In this document: piece by piece, positions 3,063-35,052 of the stretch | Numbering within the stretch: the stretch's first letter is position 1 | Layout of the letters: every line of letters begins with the position of its first letter | Assembly (NCBI GenBank): GCA_028278425.1 | Contig: JANQEJ010000037.1 | Coordinates: 97,112-161,111, forward strand | Direction of reading: 5' to 3' | Length of the DNA stretch: 64,000 bases | Source of the DNA: Planctomycetota bacterium | Lineage (GTDB): Bacteria; Planctomycetota; UBA1135; GCA-002686595 | The notes under the pieces: model-generated | Seen by the model: the letters and a program-made list of their open reading frames with translations, nothing else | Database searches by the model: none | What the model was told of the DNA's origin: nothing | Program-made: the position numbers and the translations under genes

Positions 3063-3617
3063 CTAGCTGGCCTTGCGGGCGAGGACGCCCGCGCGCCCGC
3101 CTTCCTCTTCATAGAGGACGGTCTCCAGCCCGACGAGACCGGCGGCGAGGCTCCCGGGCTGAAGCCGAAAGCGCGCCGGCGGCTTCGCGCCCGGCCAGTC
3201 GAGCGTGAAGGTGCGCGCGATCGCGTGGCCGCCGGGCGCGACCAGCGTGTGGAGCTCCTCCCAGAGCCCCGCGTCGTGGAAGTCGACGACGCAGACGAGG
3301 TCGAACGGCTCCGCCGGCGGGAAGCCGTCCACGAGGACGTCGACCGGCGTCGCCGTCACCGCGACGTCCGCTTCGCGCGCGCGGATCTCCAGCTCGGTCA
3401 ACCCGACCGGGCTGACGTCCCAGGCGTGGGTCCGCCAGCCCGCCTGCGCGAGAACAACGGCGTGCCGCCCCGTCCCGGCGGCCAGGTCCAGGGCCCGCCC
3501 GCCGAGGGGCGCGCCGATGCGGCGGAGCGCCGCGAGCACGAAGGGATCCGGCGCCTTTCGTTCGCGGCCCAGGCGGCCGGCGTACTTCTCGTCCCAACGA
3601 TCGCGGTCCGTGGCCAC
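3063..3617 (-). CDS. class I SAM-dependent methyltransferase (TehB-like)
   Basis: ALDLAAGTGRHAVVLAQAGW motif I; 184 aa. Confidence 0.75.
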   Translation of the reverse strand: MATDRDRWDEKYAGRLGRERKAPDPFVLAALRRIGAPLGGRALDLAAGTGRHAVVLAQAGWRTHAWDVSPVGLTELEIRAREADVAVTATPVDVLVDGFPPAEPFDLVCVVDFHDAGLWEELHTLVAPGGHAIARTFTLDWPGAKPPARFRLQPGSLAAGLVGLETVLYEEEGGRAGVLARKAS

Positions 3618-3954
3618 CGCGCCAGCGTAACGCCGCGCGAGGCGACCACGGACCGCAGGGAGAGAACCGCAAGGGCGCGCGGGGGCCGGTTCAACTCTTC
3701 AAGGCTCTCTGGCCCGTACCCACCGGGCCGATCAGGAGTTCGGCGAACGAGCCATCCCGCGCCACCCTTGCGGCCTTGAACATGGCGGTCCGCCCACCCT
3801 TTTCCGAGCACAACCCCTCTTCTCGGCAACGATCTCGCCCCGCCCCGGGAACCGGGGAATCGAGGGGCGTGCCACCCCGCGCGCAACGCTCGGCCGGGTC
3901 AGGACTTGCCGCGCCCTTGACGCCCCGAGCCCGAGCCGGTTCCCCTGTCCGCGG

Positions 3955-4599
3955 ATGCCGACTCCCACGGAAGCCGAGCTCCTCGCGAAGCCGCCCGCGG
4001 AGCGCTGGGGCGACGACGACGCCGGCCGGCGCTACGTCGAGGAGCGCTGGAGCGATCCCCGCCGCGCCGCGCGCGACCCGCGGCTCGTCGCCAAGCTGCT
4101 CGAACGCTGCGACGCGCGCGGCGACCGCATCCTGGACGTCCCGTGCGGCACCGGCCGGCTGCGCGCGACGCTCGAGCGCTTCGGCACGACCTACGTCGGC
4201 ATGGACGTGTCGCCGCCGATGCTCGCGGAGGCGAGGCGCGGCGGCGCCAAGCGGCTGGCGGCGGCCGACCTCACCCGCCTGCCGCTACGCGACGCGAGCT
4301 TCGGCGTCGTCGTCGCGTGCCGCATCCTGCACCACCTCGCCGCCGACGAGCTCTTCGACGCCGCGGTGCGCGAGCTCGTGCGGGTCAGCTCGAAGGCGGT
4401 CGTCGCCTCCTTCTGGGACCGGGCCTCGCTGCCGGCGCTCGGCCGCCGCGCGCGCGGGCACCGCGCGGGGGGCCGCGTGGCGCACTCGAAGCGCCGCGTG
4501 CGCGCAGCCTTCGCCGCCGCCGGCGCGGAGGTCCGAACCTACGAGCACTCGTTCCGGTTCTTCTCGCAGCAGACCTTCGTCCTCGCGACGCGCGCATGA
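3955..4599 (+). CDS. class I SAM-dependent methyltransferase
   Basis: RILDVPCGTGRLRATLERFGTTYVGMDVSPPML. Confidence 0.8.
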   Translation: MPTPTEAELLAKPPAERWGDDDAGRRYVEERWSDPRRAARDPRLVAKLLERCDARGDRILDVPCGTGRLRATLERFGTTYVGMDVSPPMLAEARRGGAKRLAAADLTRLPLRDASFGVVVACRILHHLAADELFDAAVRELVRVSSKAVVASFWDRASLPALGRRARGHRAGGRVAHSKRRVRAAFAAAGAEVRTYEHSFRFFSQQTFVLATRA

Positions 4600-5357
4600 G
4601 CCGCTTCGCGCTGCGCGGCGACGAGGCGGTCTTTGCGCGGCTGCGCCCCGCGCTCGAGCGCGCGCAACTCTCGGGGCGAAGCGAGAACCTCGTGCTCGAG
4701 CTCGACGAGCTCCGTCTCTTCGCGAAGTGGAGCTCCTTCCGCGGCAAGGCGCGGTGGCGCCACGCGGCGCGGGCGCTCTTCGGCCGGCCGCTTCCGCGCC
4801 TGAACGAGTTCGCCAACCTGACCTGGCTGCGCGAGCACGGTTTCGGCGCGCCGCGGCCGGTGCTCGCCGGCGCGGCCTGGCGCGGCGGTGCGCCGGCGTT
4901 TCAGTTCCTCTTCACCGAGGCGATCGAGAACGCGCGCACGCTCGACGAGCTCCTCGAGGACGGACCGGACGAGCTGCGGCTCCCCGCGCTGGAGACGCTC
5001 GGCCGCGAGGTCGGCAAGCTCCACGCGCGGGGCTTCGTGCACCGCGACCTCTTCCCGCGGAACCTCCTGGTCACCGTCGCGGGCGAGGCGCCGCGTATCC
5101 ACTTCCTCGACGCCTGGCGCGGCGGACCGGGGTTCGGGCTGCGCGGACCGGCGTACGACCTCGGGTGCCTGATGCTCTCCGGGGCCGGTCTCGTCGAGCC
5201 GGAGGAGCAGAAAGCGCTCTTCGACGCCTACTTCGGCGCGCGGGACGGCGCCGGAAAGCCCGCCCGTAGAATGGAGCTCCTCCGCGCGGCCGCGCGCGAG
5301 CGCCGCCGCCTCCAGCGCCGCTTCCCCCACCCACCCCGCGAGTGGAATCCATCCTGA
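4596..5357 (+). CDS. lipopolysaccharide kinase-like (Kdo/WaaP family) small kinase
   Basis: GREVGKLHARGFVHRDLFPRNLLV...HFLDAWRGG kinase-like catalytic loop and DxW; ATGA overlap with upstream methyltransferase. Confidence 0.75.
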   Translation: MSRFALRGDEAVFARLRPALERAQLSGRSENLVLELDELRLFAKWSSFRGKARWRHAARALFGRPLPRLNEFANLTWLREHGFGAPRPVLAGAAWRGGAPAFQFLFTEAIENARTLDELLEDGPDELRLPALETLGREVGKLHARGFVHRDLFPRNLLVTVAGEAPRIHFLDAWRGGPGFGLRGPAYDLGCLMLSGAGLVEPEEQKALFDAYFGARDGAGKPARRMELLRAAARERRRLQRRFPHPPREWNPS

Positions 5358-5397
5358 GCGAGTCCGATCCGCGCTCCGCGGCGTGTCTTTGAGAGCC

Positions 5398-8034
5398 ATG
5401 CCGAACCCCGCTTCGACGCCGCACCCCGAGCTCCTGCTGGCGCAGGCGAGCTGGGTGCGCCGCCTCGCGCGAACGCTCGTGGCCGACGCCCACCTCGCCG
5501 AAGACCTCACCCAGGACACCTTCGTGCGCGCCCTCGAGCACCCGCCGCGGGCGGACCAGCCGCTGCGCGGCTGGCTCGCCACGGTGATGCGCAACCTCGC
5601 GGCGCAGGGACGCCGCGGCGAGGGACGCCGCAGCGCGCGCGAGGCCCGGGCGGCGCGTCCGGAGCCCGGCGACGCTTCCGACGACGTGGTCGCCCGCGTC
5701 GCGACACAGCGCGGAGTGGTCGAGGCCGTGCTCGCGCTCGACGAGCCGTACCGCACGACGCTGCTCCTGCGCTACTTCGAGGAGCTGCCGCCGCGGCGCA
5801 TCGCGGCGCGCCAGGGCGTGCCGGTGTCGACGGTCAAGACGCGCCTCGCGCGGGGCATCGCGGCGCTGCGCCAGCGGCTCGACGAGAGCCACGGCGGCGA
5901 CGGAAAGGCATGGCTTGGCGCTCTCCTGCCGCTCACGCGGTGGCCGGAGGGCGCGTGGGCACCCTCCCTTTCCACCGTCTCGTTCGGAGTCCTCGCCGTG
6001 AACGCCAAGGTCCTCGCCGTGTGTCTGCTCCTCGCCCTCGCGGGCACGATCGCCGTCGTCGCCACGCGCGGCGACGACCCCGCCGCCGCCACCGGCGTCA
6101 CCGCGGCGGGCGTGGAAGCCGCCGCGCCTATCGAGCCGGAGCTCGCGACGCCCGAGCGGCGGACGGCCGGCGAGGCGCGCGTGCTCGACGCGACGCGGCG
6201 AGCGCCGGTCGAGCCCGCGACGACGCCGGCGTACGCCGCGAGCCCCGCGCCGGCCGAGGCCTCCGCGCTTCGGGGTCGCGTGATCGACGTCGACTCGGTG
6301 CCCGTGGCCGGCGTCGCGGTCGGGTTCGGTCCCGGCGCCGCCTCGGGCGCGACCGCGCGCTCCGGCGCGGGCGGAGCCTTCTCGCTCCCCGCCGGTGACG
6401 CGACGGGCCACCTCTACGTCGACGACGAGCACTGGACCACCGTGCTCGCCGGCGCGCGCGTGCCGCGCAGCTCCGGCAAGGAAGCGGTCGTCGTCGTGGC
6501 GCCGCCGCTGCTCCTGGGCGGCGCGGTCGTCGACGCGGCGAGCGGGCTCGCGATCGACGGCGCCCACGTGCGCGTCGAGCTCCCGCGCGACTTCCGCGCG
6601 GACTTCGCGCTCGATCTCGACCACTCGATCGACGTCCCGCGGAGCACGCGCACCGACGCGTCCGGGCGCTTCGCCTTCGTGCAGGCCCCGCGCGTCCCGT
6701 CGGCGCGGCTCACGTGCGCGGCCGAGGGCTTCCTCGCCTACGACGAGCCGCTGCCGCTCGTCGCGGACGACCGGCTCGTGATCGCGCTCGAGCGGCCGGC
6801 CCTGCAGGGGACGCTCCTCACCGGACGCGTCGTCGCTCCGGGCGGTGCGCCGGTGCCGGACGCGAAGGTCTCGCTCGGCATCGACGTGCGGACCACCGAC
6901 GAGCGCGGCGAGTTCTCCTTCGACCTGGCCGCCCCGCGGAGCTTCAACCGCGCCTTCGGCGAGATGCTGGAGCTCCACGCCGGAACGCGCCCGGCGACGC
7001 CGGGGAGCCTGCTCGCGGTCGCGTCCGGGAGGCTGCCCGCGACGTACGAGGCGCCGCGCAACCCCGACGGCGAACCGGTGTGGCCCGAGTTCGTCACGCT
7101 CGTCCTCGGCGACGAGCCGCGCTCGATCGCGGGCACCGTCGTCGACGTCGACGGCGGGCCCGTCGCCGGCGCAAGGGTGTGGCTCAACGACCCGACCTTC
7201 TTCGGCGGCATCGGCGACGCCGCGTCGGGCGAGCGGCCGGACATGATTCACGTGGAGACGCTGCTGCGCGGCGAAGGCGATCGCTTCTGGAACTTCGTCG
7301 AGACCGACGAGCGCGGCGAATTCCGGCTCGAGGGCCTGCTCGACCGCGACTACACGGTCGAGGCGATGGTCCCCGACACGCTGCTCCGCGCGGTGATCCC
7401 GGCCGTGCCCGCGGGTCGCTCCAACCTCGTCGTCGCGCTGCCCGAGGAGGAGGTCTACCCCGAGTTGCGCGGCACCGTCGTCGGCGCGGACGGCGAGCCG
7501 ATCCCCGACGTGCGCGTGTTCCCGATGTGCGACGCGTTCCGCATGCGCGTGGCCGGCACCATCGTGGGCACGCGGCACGCGCGCGCCGGCGGGACGACCA
7601 CCGACGCCGAGGGCCGCTTCAAGCTCGAGCGCGTCCCGCGCAACCTGGTCTACCTGCGCCTCGACGGCGCGGAGACGCTGCCGCTCGAGTGGGGCCGACA
7701 CGTCGAGGGCGGGCTCGGGGAGCTCGTCGGCGACGACTTCGAGGACCTCGTCATCACGGTGGCGCGGCGCTGTCACTTCCAGGTCGAGCTCGACGACCCG
7801 GCCGAGGCCGACCGCTTCGCGATGCTCGACGCGCGCGGCGACGAGCTGGAGATCAGCGAGTTCGTCGGCAACGGGCGCGGCGAGGGCTTCCGCCAGTCGC
7901 TCCTCGAAGGCCGCTCGAACCCGATGGCGGCGCCGGACACCGCGGCGACGATCGTGCTCTACCTCGGCAACGAGGAGGTGCGGCGCGCGCCGATCCGGCT
8001 TGCGCCGGGAGAGCGCGTCACGATTCGGCCGTGA
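5398..8034 (+). CDS. ECF sigma factor fused to TM helix and multiple carboxypeptidase-regulatory-like domains
   Basis: Sigma2 (LAEDLTQDTFVRALEH...RGWLATVMRNLA), sigma4 (EPYRTTLLLRYFEELPPRRIAARQGVPVSTVKTRLARGIAALRQRL), TM AVNAKVLAVCLLLALAGTIAVVAT, then repeats of type LRGRVIDVDSVPVAGVAV..., IAGTVVDVDGGPVAGARVWLND, LRGTVVGADGEPIPDVRV. Confidence 0.88.
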   Translation: MPNPASTPHPELLLAQASWVRRLARTLVADAHLAEDLTQDTFVRALEHPPRADQPLRGWLATVMRNLAAQGRRGEGRRSAREARAARPEPGDASDDVVARVATQRGVVEAVLALDEPYRTTLLLRYFEELPPRRIAARQGVPVSTVKTRLARGIAALRQRLDESHGGDGKAWLGALLPLTRWPEGAWAPSLSTVSFGVLAVNAKVLAVCLLLALAGTIAVVATRGDDPAAATGVTAAGVEAAAPIEPELATPERRTAGEARVLDATRRAPVEPATTPAYAASPAPAEASALRGRVIDVDSVPVAGVAVGFGPGAASGATARSGAGGAFSLPAGDATGHLYVDDEHWTTVLAGARVPRSSGKEAVVVVAPPLLLGGAVVDAASGLAIDGAHVRVELPRDFRADFALDLDHSIDVPRSTRTDASGRFAFVQAPRVPSARLTCAAEGFLAYDEPLPLVADDRLVIALERPALQGTLLTGRVVAPGGAPVPDAKVSLGIDVRTTDERGEFSFDLAAPRSFNRAFGEMLELHAGTRPATPGSLLAVASGRLPATYEAPRNPDGEPVWPEFVTLVLGDEPRSIAGTVVDVDGGPVAGARVWLNDPTFFGGIGDAASGERPDMIHVETLLRGEGDRFWNFVETDERGEFRLEGLLDRDYTVEAMVPDTLLRAVIPAVPAGRSNLVVALPEEEVYPELRGTVVGADGEPIPDVRVFPMCDAFRMRVAGTIVGTRHARAGGTTTDAEGRFKLERVPRNLVYLRLDGAETLPLEWGRHVEGGLGELVGDDFEDLVITVARRCHFQVELDDPAEADRFAMLDARGDELEISEFVGNGRGEGFRQSLLEGRSNPMAAPDTAATIVLYLGNEEVRRAPIRLAPGERVTIRP

Positions 8035-8542
8035 TCTCCGGGATCGAGGGGCCGCCCCCGTCGAGGATACGCGCGCCCGGGTAGCGCTCCGCCACGATCT
8101 CCCGGTGGCGCACCAGCTCGATGGTGACGCGCTCGCTGCACCAGGCGACGAGGTCGGGATGGTCGCGCCGGTGGAACTTGAGCTCGACCGCGCCCTGGCG
8201 GACCGTCTGGCTCTCGCCGCGCTCCTCGATCTCGTAGAAGACCTCCATCTTGAACACGGTCCGGCCGAGCGGGATCAACGGCTCGATCAACTGCACGTCG
8301 TGGCGCACGGTGACGGTCTGCTTCGGCCGCTGGAGGTGGCGCACGACGTGATACACCGTGACGGCGGCGACGCAGACCGCGACGGCGAGGAGCACTTCCG
8401 CCAGGTCGATCTGGACGTCGGCGCGGAACGCCATCGCGATGAGGAGGAACGCCCCGAGCAGGAGAAACGGCCCGAGCACGATCACCGCGACGGTGATCCA
8501 GAGGGCCTTCCGGACCGGCAGCAGAGCGAGGATGCGCTTCAC
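8018..8542 (-). CDS. hypothetical membrane protein (two predicted TM helices)
   Basis: 174-aa ORF MKRILALLPVRKALWITVAVIVLGPFLLLGAFLLIAMAF...; GTG start; overlaps the 3' end of the upstream convergent gene by 17 bp. Confidence 0.55.
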   Translation of the reverse strand: MKRILALLPVRKALWITVAVIVLGPFLLLGAFLLIAMAFRADVQIDLAEVLLAVAVCVAAVTVYHVVRHLQRPKQTVTVRHDVQLIEPLIPLGRTVFKMEVFYEIEERGESQTVRQGAVELKFHRRDHPDLVAWCSERVTIELVRHREIVAERYPGARILDGGGPSIPEITAES

Positions 8543-8603
8543 GAAAAAGTCCCGATCGCTCGGGAAATGCTAGCGGATACTGGCATTCAGGAAAGCGCAC
8601 GCC

Positions 8604-11225
8604 ATGGGCCCGCCGCACGCCACCTCCATCGACGACCTCCTCGTCCACGCCGGATGGGTGCGCCGCCTCGCGCGGCGCATGGTCGCCGATCCGCAGGCGG
8701 CGGACGACCTGGAGCAGGAGGCGTGGGTCGCCGCCCTCGAGCACCCGCCGGCCGACGCGCGCAACCCGCGCGGCTGGCTCGCGCGCGTGCTGCGGAACGC
8801 CGCGCGACAGCGCGGCCGCGGCGAGAAGCGCCGCCGCGTTCGCGAGCTGCGCGTCCCCGCGCGCGAGGCGGCGGCGCCGGCGGGCGAGCTCGTCGAGCGG
8901 CTCGCGGCGCACCAGCGGCTCGTGCAGGCCGTGTGGGACCTGGAAGAGCCCTACCGCGGAACCGTCCTCCTACGCTTCTTCGAGGAGCTGTCGCTGAAGG
9001 ACGTGGCGAAGCGGCAGGGCGTTCCGGTCTCGACGGTGGGCACGCGCCTCGCGCGAGGCGTCGAGAAGCTGCGCGAGCGCATGGACCGCGAGTCCGGCGG
9101 CGACCGCCGGGCGTGGTCGCTCGCGTTGGCGCCGCTGGCGGCGAGCACCGCGACGACCGCCCCGCTTTCCACCTCGACGATCGGAACGCTCCTCATGCAA
9201 GCCAAGCTGAAGCTCGCGGTCGCGGCGGCCGCCGTCGTGGCCACGGGCACCGCGTTCGCGGTGTGGACGCACGAAGCCGAGCCCGACCCGCGCGGCGACG
9301 TCGCGCGCGCCGCGCCGGGCGGCGGTGCGGCGACCACGCCGCAGGCCGAAGTAGCGGCGCCGGAAGAAGCGCGCCGCGACCGGCGCGGGACGCCGGCGGC
9401 AGCGCCGGCGGCGAACGAGCCGGGCAACGCGAACATCGACGCGGTCGCGCCGCTCGCGCCCGACCTCGGCTTAGTCGCCGGTCGCGCGCTGGACACCGAC
9501 GGCGCGGGCGTGGCGGGACTCGCCGTCCACGAGATGGGCTTCGCGCCCGACGACGAGCCCCTGGCGATGACGGCCGGCGACGGCTCGTTCGCGTTCGACG
9601 CGCCGGGGCGCGGGCTGCGGCTCGTCGCGACGAGCGCGCACTACGCGACCGTGCTCGCGAGCCATCACGCGCCCGGCACCGCGCGCGAGAAGCTCGTCGT
9701 CGTCGCGCGTCGCCTGCCGCTCGGCGGCGTGGTCGTCGGCGAGGACGGCGTCGCCGCGCCGGACGCCACGCTACGCTTCGCGCTGCCCGAGCGCTGGCGC
9801 AGCCGCTTCACCGAGATCCTCGACGACGCGGCGCCGCTGGAGCGCAACGCCGCCGCGGACGCCGACGGCCGCTTTCGGTTGGACGCGCTGGCGGTGGACG
9901 GCGCGTTCCTCGTCGCCTACGCGACCGGCTTCGAGCCGGAGCTCGTACCCCTGCCAGTGCAACCGACCGACGACCTGCAGATCGTCCTGCGCCGGCCGGA
10001 CCTCGCCGGCGCGGAGCTGACCGGCATGGTGCTCGACCCGCTCGGCGCGCCGGTGCCGGGCGCGCGCGTGGGGCTCGGCTGGGTCGACAGCGTGCTGACC
10101 GACGACACCGGCTTCTTCCGCCTGGACCTGCGCGAGGACGACGGCGCGTTCGACCTGATCGCGGTGAAGCCGGGCTTCCTGCCCGCGGTGATGGCCCCGC
10201 CGGAGAGCTGGCCGCCGTTCGTCGTGCTCGAGCTCGGCGGCGCGCCGCTGACGCTCTCCGGGCGCGTCGTCGACGAGGACGGCGCGCCGCGCCCCGGCGT
10301 GCTCGTCTGGGCCAAGGACCCGACCTTCTTCGGACACATGGAGGAGATGTCGGTGCACGCGGAAGGGCTGCTCGCGGAGCTCCCGACCCGCGCCGTCTTC
10401 GAAAGGATGCGCGCGGAGGACGGTGACCCGGCGAGCTTCGACGCGCGCATGCAGGTCCAGCCGAGCGCGTTCCTCCCGCGCGTCCGCACGGACGCGGACG
10501 GCCGCTTCGAGCTCGTCGGCATGCTGCCGCGCGAGTACACGCTGCGCGCGCTCGACGACGCGACGCTGCGCATGACGGAGTCCGGCCCGTTCGCCGCCGG
10601 ACGGAGCGACGCGCTCCTCCGCCTCCCGCGCCGGGGCTCCGTCGGCGTCGCCGGCATCGTCGTCGACGGCGCGGGCGAGCCCGTCCCCGGCGTCGCGGTG
10701 ATCCCGCGCCGCCAGCCGTTCTCCGCGCCGTGGGGCAGGCACGGCTTCTACAGTTGGCGGGTCGACGGCGAGTCGGCGCGCACGGACGCGAGCGGTCGCT
10801 TCGCCCTGGCGGAGCTCCCGGTTGACGCCGAGGGCGTCGTCCTCGCGCTCGAGTCGGGCGACGTCATGCCGCGGGCCGTCGACCTGGAGGAGGCGGTGCG
10901 CGACGCGCGCGCGAACGGGCGCACGAAGGACGAGCTGCGTTTCGTCGTCGAGGTCCGCTACCACCTCCAGGTCGTGCTCGGCGAAGAACACGGCTGGGTC
11001 GACGACGTACGGGTGCTCGACGAAGAGGGCGAACGCATGACGATCCGCGCGTTCGGGGCCGGCGGCTACTGGACCGGCGGGAGCGCTTCCGTGACCGCGG
11101 GGCGAACGGAGGTGCTCGCGGTCGCCGCGGGTGCCGCGCAGGTCGTGCTGCACGGCGGCAAGGGTGAACCCGAGGCGCACGCGGTGAAGCTCGAGCGCGG
11201 GCGATTGAACGTCATCCGTCCGTAA
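8604..11225 (+). CDS. ECF sigma factor fused to TM helix and carboxypeptidase-regulatory-like domains (paralogue of 5398..8034)
   Basis: Sigma2 AADDLEQEAWVAALEHPP..RGWLARVLRNAARQ, sigma4 EPYRGTVLLRFFEELSLKDVAKRQGVPVSTVGTRLARGVEKLRERM, TM MQAKLKLAVAAAAVVATGTAFAVWT, repeats LSGRVVDEDGAPRPGVLVWAKDPTFFG etc. Confidence 0.88.
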   Translation: MGPPHATSIDDLLVHAGWVRRLARRMVADPQAADDLEQEAWVAALEHPPADARNPRGWLARVLRNAARQRGRGEKRRRVRELRVPAREAAAPAGELVERLAAHQRLVQAVWDLEEPYRGTVLLRFFEELSLKDVAKRQGVPVSTVGTRLARGVEKLRERMDRESGGDRRAWSLALAPLAASTATTAPLSTSTIGTLLMQAKLKLAVAAAAVVATGTAFAVWTHEAEPDPRGDVARAAPGGGAATTPQAEVAAPEEARRDRRGTPAAAPAANEPGNANIDAVAPLAPDLGLVAGRALDTDGAGVAGLAVHEMGFAPDDEPLAMTAGDGSFAFDAPGRGLRLVATSAHYATVLASHHAPGTAREKLVVVARRLPLGGVVVGEDGVAAPDATLRFALPERWRSRFTEILDDAAPLERNAAADADGRFRLDALAVDGAFLVAYATGFEPELVPLPVQPTDDLQIVLRRPDLAGAELTGMVLDPLGAPVPGARVGLGWVDSVLTDDTGFFRLDLREDDGAFDLIAVKPGFLPAVMAPPESWPPFVVLELGGAPLTLSGRVVDEDGAPRPGVLVWAKDPTFFGHMEEMSVHAEGLLAELPTRAVFERMRAEDGDPASFDARMQVQPSAFLPRVRTDADGRFELVGMLPREYTLRALDDATLRMTESGPFAAGRSDALLRLPRRGSVGVAGIVVDGAGEPVPGVAVIPRRQPFSAPWGRHGFYSWRVDGESARTDASGRFALAELPVDAEGVVLALESGDVMPRAVDLEEAVRDARANGRTKDELRFVVEVRYHLQVVLGEEHGWVDDVRVLDEEGERMTIRAFGAGGYWTGGSASVTAGRTEVLAVAAGAAQVVLHGGKGEPEAHAVKLERGRLNVIRP

Positions 11226-11352: not shown

Positions 11353-13446
11353 ATGGTCCCCCGTTTTCTCGCTCTTGCAGCGGCGGCGCTCGCGGCCGCC
11401 TTCCTCCCCGCTTCCGCGCAGTCGTTCGTCAACAACACGGACGACATCCCCGCGACCGTTCGCGACACCGAGAACATCGACTTCGGCGACGTGGACCTGG
11501 ACGGCGACTGGGACGCCGCCCTGGCGAACGGCGGCGATTCCGGCAGCCAGCAGAACGACCTCTGGATCAACCAGGGCGGTCTGCAGGGCGGAACGACCGG
11601 GGTGTTCGCCGACGAGACCGTGCCGCGCTTCCCGAGCGTCGTCGACAACAGCCGCGACCTCGAGTTCGTCGACTTCGACGGCGACTCCGACGTCGACGTG
11701 TACGTCGCAGACATCTCGCAGATCTTCAACCAGCCGAGCCGCTGGTGGACCAACCTGGGCGGCGACCAGGGCGGCGCGCTCGGGTTCTTCGCCGACCAGA
11801 CCGAGACGCGCTGGGTGGGGCTGGGCGGAGCCGGCTCGTCGATCGCGCCCTCGCTCCTGCTTCCGGCCGGCGGCTGGGTGGACTTCCCCGGCGACGGGGA
11901 CTTCGCCGACCTGGACGGCGACGGCGATCTCGACCTCGTGCACTCGAGCTACGGCGGCGCGTACAGCGGCACCGTGCCGACGCGCATCTTCCTCAACGAC
12001 GGCGCAGGTTTCTTCTCCGAGTTCAACCCGTCGGGTTTCCAGCTCCCAGGGCTCAACATCTCGAACGGCGACCCGGCGCTCTGGTGCGACGGCGTGCAGC
12101 AGCACGAGACCGTCGACGCGACCGGCGCCTTCGCGGACATTGCCAACGCCGTCGTCGACTTCGAGCTCGGCGACATGGACGGCGACTTCGACGTCGACGT
12201 CGTCTGGACGGGACGCAACGAAATCAAGCCGCGCTACTTCGTCAACAAGCTCAACGGCGGGTCGCTCGGCTTCCGCGACGTCTCGACGGAGTTCTACCCG
12301 GCGGGCTTCTCCGCCACGAGCTCGACCTTCGACCAGGAGCTCGGCGACCTGGACGACGACGACGACCTCGACCTCTACGGGCTCAACTGGACGTCGGGCT
12401 TCTTCGACGTCACGCTGGAGAACGTCGGCGGGAAGCTGGCCAACCCGACGACGCTTCCCGGCTCTTCTCAGGACGAGGAGGAGGGCGACTTCCTCGACTA
12501 CGACGCCGACGGCGACCTCGACCTTTACGTCGCGAACTTCTCCGGCGGCGACAAGCTCTACCGCAACAACGGCGGCAACCCGATCAGCTTCACCGACGTG
12601 TCGGCATCGGAGCTTCCCACCGGCCTCGCCGGCATCGGGCGCGACGTGGAGACCAACGACGTCGACGGCGATGGCGACTACGACGTGTTCGTCGCGAACA
12701 GCGACGTCGAGACCTTCTACGTCGAGAACATCACGCAAACGCCCGACGCCAACGCGCCGCGGGTCCCGCTCGTCGAGACCGTGAGCGTCGCGGCCGCCAC
12801 CAGCGGCTCGGTGCGCGTGCGCGCGCACGTCTACGACAACGCCGCCTACTACACGATCTGGTACCACGACACCGACCTCCTGGTCAGCGTCGACGGCTGC
12901 GCCCTGCCGGACCTCCCGATGTCCTCGTCGCGCGGTCAGGTGTTCCGCGGCGAGATCCCGTCGAACCTGGTGGGCAGCGTCCAGTATCGGGTGCGCTCGA
13001 CGGACGAGCACGGCAACGCCGGGCTCTCCTCCGTCCAGGGCTACAGCGCGACCGGCAACACCGGCACGCTCTTCGGCGCGGAATCCGCGGGCACCGCCCT
13101 CGCGCCGCCGCAGGTGGCCGCGCTGTCGGAAGCGCGCGAGAACCAGCCGCTGTACGTCGCCGGGACCGGCACATTGGCCGGCGGCCTTGGCTTCCTCGGC
13201 GTGTCGCTCGGCGACCAGGTGCCGCCGCTGCCGGTGCCGTCACTGCCGAACCTGATCCTGAACATCGACGCGGGGCCGCTGTTTCTGGCGAGTGAGAGCT
13301 GCGTGCTCGATGCCTCGGCGAAGTGCGTCGCGGTCTTCGACGTCCCGGGCGGGACGGCGGGCGCCGACGTCTTCTTCCAGTTCGTCGACGTGGCGGGTGA
13401 CGGCACGCTCGGGAGCTCGAAGGGGCTCAAGCTGACGATTCAGTAG
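11353..13446 (+). CDS. secreted FG-GAP/VCBS-repeat protein
   Basis: Signal peptide MVPRFLALAAAALAAAFLPASAQ; repeated D.DGD.DLDL motifs (GDVDLDGDWDAALANGG, ADLDGDGDLDLVHS, DYDADGDLDLYVANF). Purine-rich AGGAGGAGG just upstream of ATG. Confidence 0.85.
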   Translation: MVPRFLALAAAALAAAFLPASAQSFVNNTDDIPATVRDTENIDFGDVDLDGDWDAALANGGDSGSQQNDLWINQGGLQGGTTGVFADETVPRFPSVVDNSRDLEFVDFDGDSDVDVYVADISQIFNQPSRWWTNLGGDQGGALGFFADQTETRWVGLGGAGSSIAPSLLLPAGGWVDFPGDGDFADLDGDGDLDLVHSSYGGAYSGTVPTRIFLNDGAGFFSEFNPSGFQLPGLNISNGDPALWCDGVQQHETVDATGAFADIANAVVDFELGDMDGDFDVDVVWTGRNEIKPRYFVNKLNGGSLGFRDVSTEFYPAGFSATSSTFDQELGDLDDDDDLDLYGLNWTSGFFDVTLENVGGKLANPTTLPGSSQDEEEGDFLDYDADGDLDLYVANFSGGDKLYRNNGGNPISFTDVSASELPTGLAGIGRDVETNDVDGDGDYDVFVANSDVETFYVENITQTPDANAPRVPLVETVSVAAATSGSVRVRAHVYDNAAYYTIWYHDTDLLVSVDGCALPDLPMSSSRGQVFRGEIPSNLVGSVQYRVRSTDEHGNAGLSSVQGYSATGNTGTLFGAESAGTALAPPQVAALSEARENQPLYVAGTGTLAGGLGFLGVSLGDQVPPLPVPSLPNLILNIDAGPLFLASESCVLDASAKCVAVFDVPGGTAGADVFFQFVDVAGDGTLGSSKGLKLTIQ

Positions 13447-33697: not shown

Positions 33698-34345
33698 ATG
33701 ACCGTAGACCGCTTGAAACCCTTGAAACCAACGAGCTCGCTCCAGCCCTCGAAGGGCGGCCGAGAGCGAGCGCGCCACGACGCCGACCTCGAGCTGGTCC
33801 GGGGCGCGCAGAACGGAGATCCCGCCGCGGTCAGCGAGCTGCTGGAACGGACGAAGTGCGTGCGCGGGATGCTGGTCTTCCAGAACCGCCGGCTCAGAGG
33901 ACGGCTCGGCGAGGAGGAGCTCGAGGATCTCGTCCAGAGCACTCTGCTCGCGATCTGGCGCAAGCTCGACGACTACGCGGGGATCGGGAAGCTCGAGTCC
34001 TGGCTCTTCCGCTTCTGCTACCTGGAGACCCTGGCGCGCCTGCGCGAGATGCGGCGCCTGCCGCGGCAGCTCGACGACTCCGTGGACCCGCCGCAGCCCG
34101 AGCGGGACCCGGCGTCGGAGGCGCTCGACCACGAGCACCTCTACCGGGTCCTGGACCGCCTCGACGCGCCGGTGAGGCGGATCCTGCTCCTGAAGCACGT
34201 CGAGGAGCTGACCTTCGACCAGATCGGGAAGCGGCTCGACCTCTCCGCCAACACGGCGAAGACGCGCTATTACCGCGGGATCGCGAAACTCCGCGGCCTG
34301 CTCGCGTCGCAGATGGATGGCCCGGCCCGAGGAGGGGACGCGTGA
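33698..34345 (+). CDS. ECF-type RNA polymerase sigma factor
   Basis: EEELEDLVQSTLLAIWRKLDDYAGIGKLESWLFRFCYLETLAR (sigma2) and VRRILLLKHVEELTFDQIGKRLDLSANTAKTRYYRGIAKLRGLL (sigma4). Confidence 0.9.
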   Translation: MTVDRLKPLKPTSSLQPSKGGRERARHDADLELVRGAQNGDPAAVSELLERTKCVRGMLVFQNRRLRGRLGEEELEDLVQSTLLAIWRKLDDYAGIGKLESWLFRFCYLETLARLREMRRLPRQLDDSVDPPQPERDPASEALDHEHLYRVLDRLDAPVRRILLLKHVEELTFDQIGKRLDLSANTAKTRYYRGIAKLRGLLASQMDGPARGGDA

Positions 34346-35052
34346 GCCGCCACGACGCCGAGCGCCACGGGGAGCGCCTCCAGGAGGTGCTGGCGCGCGG
34401 GGACGAGGCGCGGATCGCATTCGAAGGCTCGGAGCTCGCGAGCTGCGACACCTGCCGCAGCTTCCTGGAAGCGACGATGGACACGATCGACCGCATGGAC
34501 GCCCTGGGGCGCTTCGAGCGCGCCGAACGCGACGCCTTCGAGCAGGCGAAGCTCGACGTCGCGCCGGGGTCGGCGGAAGAGCGGGTGCGCGAGCAGGTGC
34601 TGGCGCAGCTCCGCGGACGAGCGCCCGCGCGCCGCCGCTGGGCGTGGGTGGGCGCGGCCGCCGCGGCCGTGCTCGCGCTGGTCGCCGCCCTGTACGTCTT
34701 CGCCCCCGGCGACGGCGGGGACGGCGGAGGCGGGCCGATGCTCGGCGACGGCTTCGAGCTCCTGCACCCCGCCGGCGCGGTGGAGGGAGACTCCTTCGGC
34801 ACGTTCCGCTGGAGCGGCGCCCTGCCCCCGGGCGGTTGGTACAAGATCAAGGTATTCGGGGAGACCGAGCCGGGCAGGTTCGACCTGCTCGACGAGAGCG
34901 GGCGCCTTCGGGAGCCCCGCTGGGCTCCCGACCCGACGGAAGAAGCACGATGGCCCGCCCGTATTCGCTGGATGCTCGAGGTGTACGACGGCTCCAACGC
35001 CAGCCGGGGCTTCGAAACGCACCGCCAGGACGCGGAGCTCTCCTCGCGCTGA
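34342..35052 (+). CDS. putative transmembrane anti-sigma factor with extracytoplasmic beta domain
   Basis: GTGA overlap with ECF gene; ASCDTCRSFLE (zf-HC2-like CxxC); TM WAWVGAAAAAVLALVAALYVF; C-term FGTFRWSGALPPGGWYKIKVFGE. Confidence 0.75.
   Translation: MSRHDAERHGERLQEVLARGDEARIAFEGSELASCDTCRSFLEATMDTIDRMDALGRFERAERDAFEQAKLDVAPGSAEERVREQVLAQLRGRAPARRRWAWVGAAAAAVLALVAALYVFAPGDGGDGGGGPMLGDGFELLHPAGAVEGDSFGTFRWSGALPPGGWYKIKVFGETEPGRFDLLDESGRLREPRWAPDPTEEARWPARIRWMLEVYDGSNASRGFETHRQDAELSSR

Follow-up and report, generated by a model that had tools for sequence, protein, structure and literature searches.

ECF sigma factors fused to a TM helix are already known from Actinobacteria, where those of the ECF52 (SCO4117) type, and also ECF48 and ECF53, combine a sigma factor, a TM segment and an extracytoplasmic domain in one chain (PMC8999054), as do the proteins described here, which we call giants. 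The outside part of SCO4117 comprises a proline-rich region and a carbohydrate-binding domain, and ECF48, ECF52 and ECF53 contain a zinc-binding anti-sigma-like domain and extensions of up to about 400 residues (PMC8999054). The giants, on the other hand, have no recognisable anti-sigma domain, carry a CarboxypepD_reg array of ~590 residues, occur in dozens per genome and possess a putative nested translation start. In IutY (ECF243), too, the sigma factor is tethered to the membrane within one polypeptide, and release by proteolysis is the model proposed for this protein; unlike the giants, for which neither was found, IutY contains a FecR-like anti-sigma part and works with an outer-membrane receptor (PMC8999054). 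The ECF-WD40 proteins of Gemmataceae are, like the giants, planctomycete ECFs with a large C-terminal beta-rich extension that have expanded within their lineage, but their extension is made of WD40 repeats (PMC8567305) rather than of CarboxypepD_reg/prealbumin-like sandwiches. According to PMC8103513, which describes the work of Todor et al. 2020, roughly 55% of ECFs are autoregulated and a code relates sigma2 and sigma4 residues to promoter bases; the same kind of autoregulated promoter and code is found here in a membrane-fused family. Hence TM-fused ECFs and ECF autoregulation are not novel in themselves. The type of ectodomain, the scale and the nested start appear to be new, and an existing ECF group may already contain the giants. 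A literature search for CarboxypepD_reg together with ECF sigma factors returned no papers.

Layout of the two giant genes

The window, i.e. the whole stretch of 64,000 nucleotides that was analysed, contains two neighbouring giant genes with the following features.

5398..8034, + strand: gene 1 (P0001), 878 aa, ECF sigma - TM - CarboxypepD_reg array (ORF, Pfam, AlphaFold2 model)
5446..5628, + strand: gene 1 sigma region 2, residues 17-77 (Pfam)
5605-5607, + strand: gene 1 predicted -10 specificity residue Q70 (covariation)
5716..5868, + strand: gene 1 sigma region 4, residues 107-157 (Pfam)
5827-5850, + strand: gene 1 predicted -35 specificity residues S144, K147, T148 and A151 (covariation)
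5902..5925, + strand: gene 1 conserved juxtamembrane linker helix, GGDxxAWxxAL motif (paralog consensus, model)
5983..6066, + strand: gene 1 TM helix, residues 196-223 in the model (hydrophobicity, AlphaFold2)
6265..8025, + strand: gene 1 ectodomain, residues 290-876, a chain of transthyretin/prealbumin-like beta-sandwiches (Pfam, model, Foldseek)
8604..11225, + strand: gene 2 (P0002), 873 aa, ECF sigma - TM - CarboxypepD_reg array (ORF, Pfam, hydrophobicity)
9207..9263, + strand: gene 2 TM helix, residues 202-220 (hydrophobicity)

The architecture proposed in the earlier note has held up well. Sigma70_r2, Sigma70_r4_2 and CarboxypepD_reg (PF13620) exceed the Pfam curated cut-offs in both proteins, in agreement with the sigma2/sigma4 modules and the carboxypeptidase-regulatory-like array that had been read from the sequence, and each array of about 590 residues contains five CarboxypepD_reg stretches. 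Both proteins also share the GGDxxAW...LxPL linker, the W.xDPTFFG repeat and the ...IRP ending that the note had pointed out. The single TM helix claimed for each was recovered by a hydrophobicity scan as the one strong hydrophobic helix C-terminal to sigma4 (residues 205-223 of P0001 and 202-220 of P0002), and for P0001 also by AlphaFold2; a further hydrophobic window in P0001 (363-381) falls on a beta-strand region of the structure model. This model, built from 21 related sequences (mean pLDDT 80.7, pTM 0.61), comprises sigma helices (10-164), a short linker helix (169-176), the TM helix (196-223), a disordered segment of about 60 residues (224-287) and a confident beta array (290-876) that reaches the C-terminus. 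The nearest solved structures of the sigma part are M. tuberculosis SigL and B. subtilis SigW, and parts of the ectodomain resemble CNA B-repeats, SpaA-type pilins and MG domains of alpha-2-macroglobulin in Foldseek comparisons with the P0001 model, where low overall TM-scores limit the resemblance to the level of single domains. Among NCBIfam models, only that of the general sigma70-ECF superfamily scored above its cut-off. In both proteins the linker between sigma4 and the TM helix has neither a Pfam match nor a recognisable anti-sigma domain of the ZAS or FecR-like type, and WD40 repeats were matched by Pfam neither in P0001 and P0002 nor in the domain tally of 30 paralogs. P0002 is devoid of cysteine.

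The giant family in Planctomycetota

The 7.83-Mb genome contains 110 Sigma70_r2 matches, 30 of which open proteins of 670-1216 aa with the giant layout; sigma2 and sigma4 are matched by Pfam in all 30 of these and CarboxypepD_reg in 27, and the linker with GGDxxAW..L.PL is near the family consensus throughout the 30 paralogs. The search for the sigma-TM-CarboxypepD_reg architecture that the earlier note had suggested thus finds 30 genes here, and it finds relatives in other Planctomycetota. Calling the factors "paired" describes the two local neighbours correctly, but not a genome that holds 30 long genes of such layout. A profile of the sigma-linker-TM part matched 68 of 119 Planctomycetota genomes at E<=1e-25, with at least 22 matches in each of ten, although weak matches may be ordinary ECFs because the profile is dominated by sigma; likewise, the P0001-like matches, up to 45 in related genera, include ordinary ECFs. 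The named relatives are Planctomycetota MAGs and the cultured Saltatorellus ferox Poly30, which encodes an 838-aa protein with the same domains as the giants. The comparative set was drawn from MAGs, and all start codons are computational calls. No long match was found in the plasmid collection searched.

The tandem copies had been attributed to duplication. However, P0001 and P0002 are only 38-39% identical, and in the tree P0001 groups with full-length orthologs of other genera (support 0.82-0.91), while P0002 belongs to another subgroup. The tree thus does not pair the two as sisters and lends no support to a recent tandem duplication. In relatives (L063, L064, L065) giants also stand in local pairs, on the same strand or divergent, so that clustering recurs.

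Proposed membrane signalling and the predicted nested start

We consider it rather probable that a giant is a one-protein signal transducer placed in its own feedback loop, with a second product nested in frame. The sigma part would reside in the cytoplasm and the beta array in the periplasm or at the surface, and the membrane tether would restrain sigma activity for as long as the array encounters neither ligand nor stress. The sigma part would then be released, most likely via regulated intramembrane proteolysis, by analogy with IutY and with the mechanism predicted for ECF52 (PMC8999054). Once free, it could transcribe its own gene and a very small regulon, which for gene 1 would include a secreted hydrolase of the beta-lactamase fold. 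The additional translation would yield some fusion and probably more of the sigma-free ectodomain; the latter may have a ligand or assembly in common with the fusion, in which case it would either build the structure that is monitored or damp the signal. Genes for M50 (site-2) proteases are found in the genome, but as these proteases, to our knowledge, occur in nearly all bacteria, their presence says little about release.

Alternatively, the anchored full-length protein could itself recruit DNA and RNA polymerase, with the state of the ectodomain altering clustering or conformation and without any cleavage. Such membrane-tethered transcription would agree with the short cytoplasmic linker and its conserved helix, and with the surroundings of the giants, since the 25 most frequent Pfam families, with 55 neighbours considered, include no recurring partner or anti-sigma family. 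Nevertheless, proteolysis is what activates IutY, a TM-fused ECF for which experimental characterisation is reported (PMC8999054), and we regard transcription from the tether as unlikely. If the one-protein transducer is correct, sensor, transcription factor and promoter would all come from a single gene, which would also supply the outer part of the sensor as an independent copy; a separate anti-sigma factor was not seen. It is tempting to go further, albeit only tentatively, and to suppose that most genes of the family make a sigma-bearing reporter of envelope assembly together with a sigma-free copy that forms the assembly; such systems would be self-regulated without a separate sensor or anti-sigma, dozens per genome, each with a separate promoter code.

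The second product is predicted from a start site within each of the two genes.

5986..6000, + strand: predicted internal translation start of gene 1, SD GGAG (5986-5989) and GTG (5998-6000, residue 201)
9183..9197, + strand: candidate internal translation start of gene 2, weak SD GGAA (9183-9186) and ATG (9195-9197, residue 198)

The gap between SD and start codon is 8 nt in both. The earlier note had placed the sigma factor and the ectodomain in one chain. One ORF indeed spans sigma, TM helix and ectodomain, and the in-frame fusion is kept in 196 of 196 sampled giants (the sampling itself required an open frame), but the description is probably incomplete, as the internal start predicts a second product free of sigma. 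The conserved GxxxM ahead of the TM helix is a nucleotide signal. Of 192 giants, 124 have an in-frame ATG directly ahead of the TM helix, and GGAG, GAGG or AGGA precedes it at -20 to -4 in 77 of these 124, compared to 13.6+-3.0 expected from synonymous resampling (maximum 22 in 300 resamples); at control Met codons in the sigma part, SD-like 4-mers were counted in 54 of 237 cases. The glycine four codons before the internal ATG is encoded by GGA in 62 of 82 instances, against a background of 11%. Among genes without an internal ATG, an SD is combined with GTG in 19 (3.9+-1.6 expected), with TTG in 3 (0.6 expected) and with other Val codons in 6 (5.4 expected), so that the GTG and TTG combinations account for only 22 of these 68 genes.

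SD-like sequences within genes have been proposed to slow ribosomes, and the internal SD and ATG, lying directly before the TM helix, might therefore serve as a translational pause that aids membrane targeting of the helix rather than as a start site. Against this, the SD enrichment is tied to start codons, in that GTG is enriched and the synonymous GTC, GTT and GTA are not; its spacing peaks at -12 from the start codon; and the RNA there is less structured than its synonymous resamples (mean z +1.16, compared to -0.39 at control Mets; p=6e-26). The codon preference and the reduced structure favour initiation over pausing. Moreover, stand-alone TM-ectodomain homologs begin in the same manner, with a short basic N-terminus followed by the TM helix, both in the same genome (L013, 8075-10492; L275, 2020-4056) and in relatives (L062 and, as several tandem genes, L061), and their existence argues that a sigma-free form is viable alone. 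We therefore deem the pause quite improbable, and propose that an internal start just before the TM helix has been selected at the nucleotide level and would give a sigma-free membrane ectodomain. Together with a promoter of its own, the nested start recurs in most sampled genomes, and it constitutes a concrete and readily testable prediction. A gene of giant layout is carried by at least one cultured species, S. ferox Poly30. The tandem sigma-free genes of TM plus beta-array type in L061 (about 3600-10192) have near-identical N-termini (NRRTTLVLLALAALLTGIGVWFG).

The promoter code and the predicted gene 1 regulon

A two-box model derived from the upstream regions of 75 relatives converged on cTGAAtC-N13-GCGGcaT. 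Applied unchanged to the genome studied here, it scored at least 12 before 10 of the 30 giants and before 6 of 339 other genes (p=1.5e-8), while exact enumeration of dyads and k-mers upstream of the same 30 giants yielded nothing above shuffles. The motif obtained from 196 non-redundant giants, TGAa(n)C(g)-N13-CGG(c/g)aT, reaches a score of at least 10 in 107 of them, compared to 6 in shuffled sequence, and its spacer is 13 nt in 95 of the 107. It lies mostly 10-20 nt ahead of the start codon, which implies very short leaders, and an SD-like sequence is present at the first start in only 42 of 196 giants. About 45% of the giants have no promoter above the threshold; gene 2 is among them, as no good autoregulatory promoter was found in its upstream region, only a -10-like TGGCATT. 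Gene 1 is preceded by the following element.

5359..5385, + strand: predicted autoregulatory ECF promoter of gene 1, -35 CGAGTCC (5359-5365), 13-nt spacer, -10 CGGCGTG (5379-5385), 12-13 nt before the ATG (motif, covariation, 4 genome matches)

Within the 107 giants with a scored promoter, we searched for the protein columns that carry information on each promoter base; the choice of sites by the motif model makes no use of the protein sequence. Position 3 of the -35 element covaries with residue 148 (z=28, against 3.9 for the next column), position 7 with residue 147 (z=16.5), position 6 also with 147, and position 5 with 144 (z=12.8), 151 (z=11.3) and also 143. Position 4 of the -10 element covaries with residue 70 (z=14.3), as does position 5, and position 6 covaries with residue 62. 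These columns fall on the recognition helix of sigma4 and on sigma2, while the median column is near zero. The resulting code is close to deterministic: T148 goes with A in 68 of 69 cases and S or A148 with C in 29 of 33; E144 and K147 go with C in 34 of 36 and 28 of 29, respectively; in the -10 element, R or K70 goes with G (39 of 42) and Q or E70 with C (35 of 38). The fit of S144, K147, T148, A151 and Q70 of gene 1 to its own promoter is not an independent test, because gene 1 is among the 107. When partners were swapped among sister giants within genomes, a permutation that models the tree only in part, the observed association was reached in 0-2 of 5000 trials. In a tree built without the positions concerned, the residue class switches at least 19-41 times, so that shared ancestry does not explain the covariation. 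Its loss when partners are swapped within genomes indicates that the sigma domains work. By the evidence of this code, the sigma part of a membrane-fused giant protein is in use, and each giant sigma very probably reads its own promoter, so that the giants would transcribe their own genes. Loss of the sigma contact residues had been named in the earlier note as a point against its reading; residues 144, 147, 148, 151 and 70 instead covary with -35 and -10 bases of the giants' own promoters.

The core motif that giant promoters have in common could also be explained by a separate, unlinked master sigma factor that drives all of them without autoregulation, but this is very unlikely, as the variable bases follow the contact residues of each individual giant even within one genome. 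Scarcely credible is the view of the giants as adhesins or structural proteins of the envelope with a vestigial sigma part, for although their ectodomains resemble the beta-sandwich repeats of pilins and MSCRAMMs and sigma-free homologs exist, the Pfam sigma regions are intact in 30 of 30, and the residue-base covariation extends to sigma2 as well as sigma4 and involves many independent switches.

If autoregulation by each giant is correct, dozens of parallel systems with a readable promoter code would make regulons of the largely uncultured Planctomycetota predictable, and would offer a ready supply of promoter/sigma pairs that differ in specificity. For gene 1, the pattern YGARTCC-N13-CGGCRT has 4 matches in 7.83 Mb, compared to 2 for the reversed control pattern. 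One is the promoter of gene 1 itself; another is located 16 nt upstream of the giant in L013, which has the same recognition helix as gene 1 (VPVSTVKTRLARG); the third lies 10 nt before a secreted PF00144 hydrolase of the beta-lactamase fold (L280), and this site shares most of its spacer with the promoter of gene 1; the fourth is inside a gene. In a genome of a different genus (G008), just two sites precede gene starts, one belonging to the gene 1 ortholog (at 15 nt) and one to a PF00144 protein 51% identical to the hydrolase here (33 nt before its called start). The site of the hydrolase ortholog in G009 is degraded, with 2 mismatches in the -35 element, and far from the called start, and was counted as weak. 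A gene 1 regulon consisting of its own gene and a few others, including the secreted hydrolase, is thus a good prediction, though one from a small sample. A broader promoter pattern was dropped as too unspecific (124 matches, control 53).

Among the neighbouring genes in the window, those for a methyltransferase and a Kdo/WaaP-family kinase (3955-5357) lie directly upstream of gene 1; the same order next to gene 1 recurs in G008 (L070), whereas the remaining ortholog loci examined lack it. A 174-aa membrane protein with no family assigned is encoded between the giants (8018-8542, - strand); its ORF and the 3' end of gene 1 have 17 bp in common. Gene 2 is followed directly by a gene for a secreted FG-GAP repeat protein (11353-13446, + strand), and FG-GAP proteins are the commonest family among the neighbours of giants (3 of 55). 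Elsewhere in the window, a compact ECF sigma factor of 158 aa (33869-34345) overlaps by 4 bp with the gene for a one-TM protein of 236 aa (34342-35052), which contains a CDTC motif and is matched by no Pfam family; in contrast to the fused giants, these two form a canonical-looking pair of an ECF and an anti-sigma-like protein.
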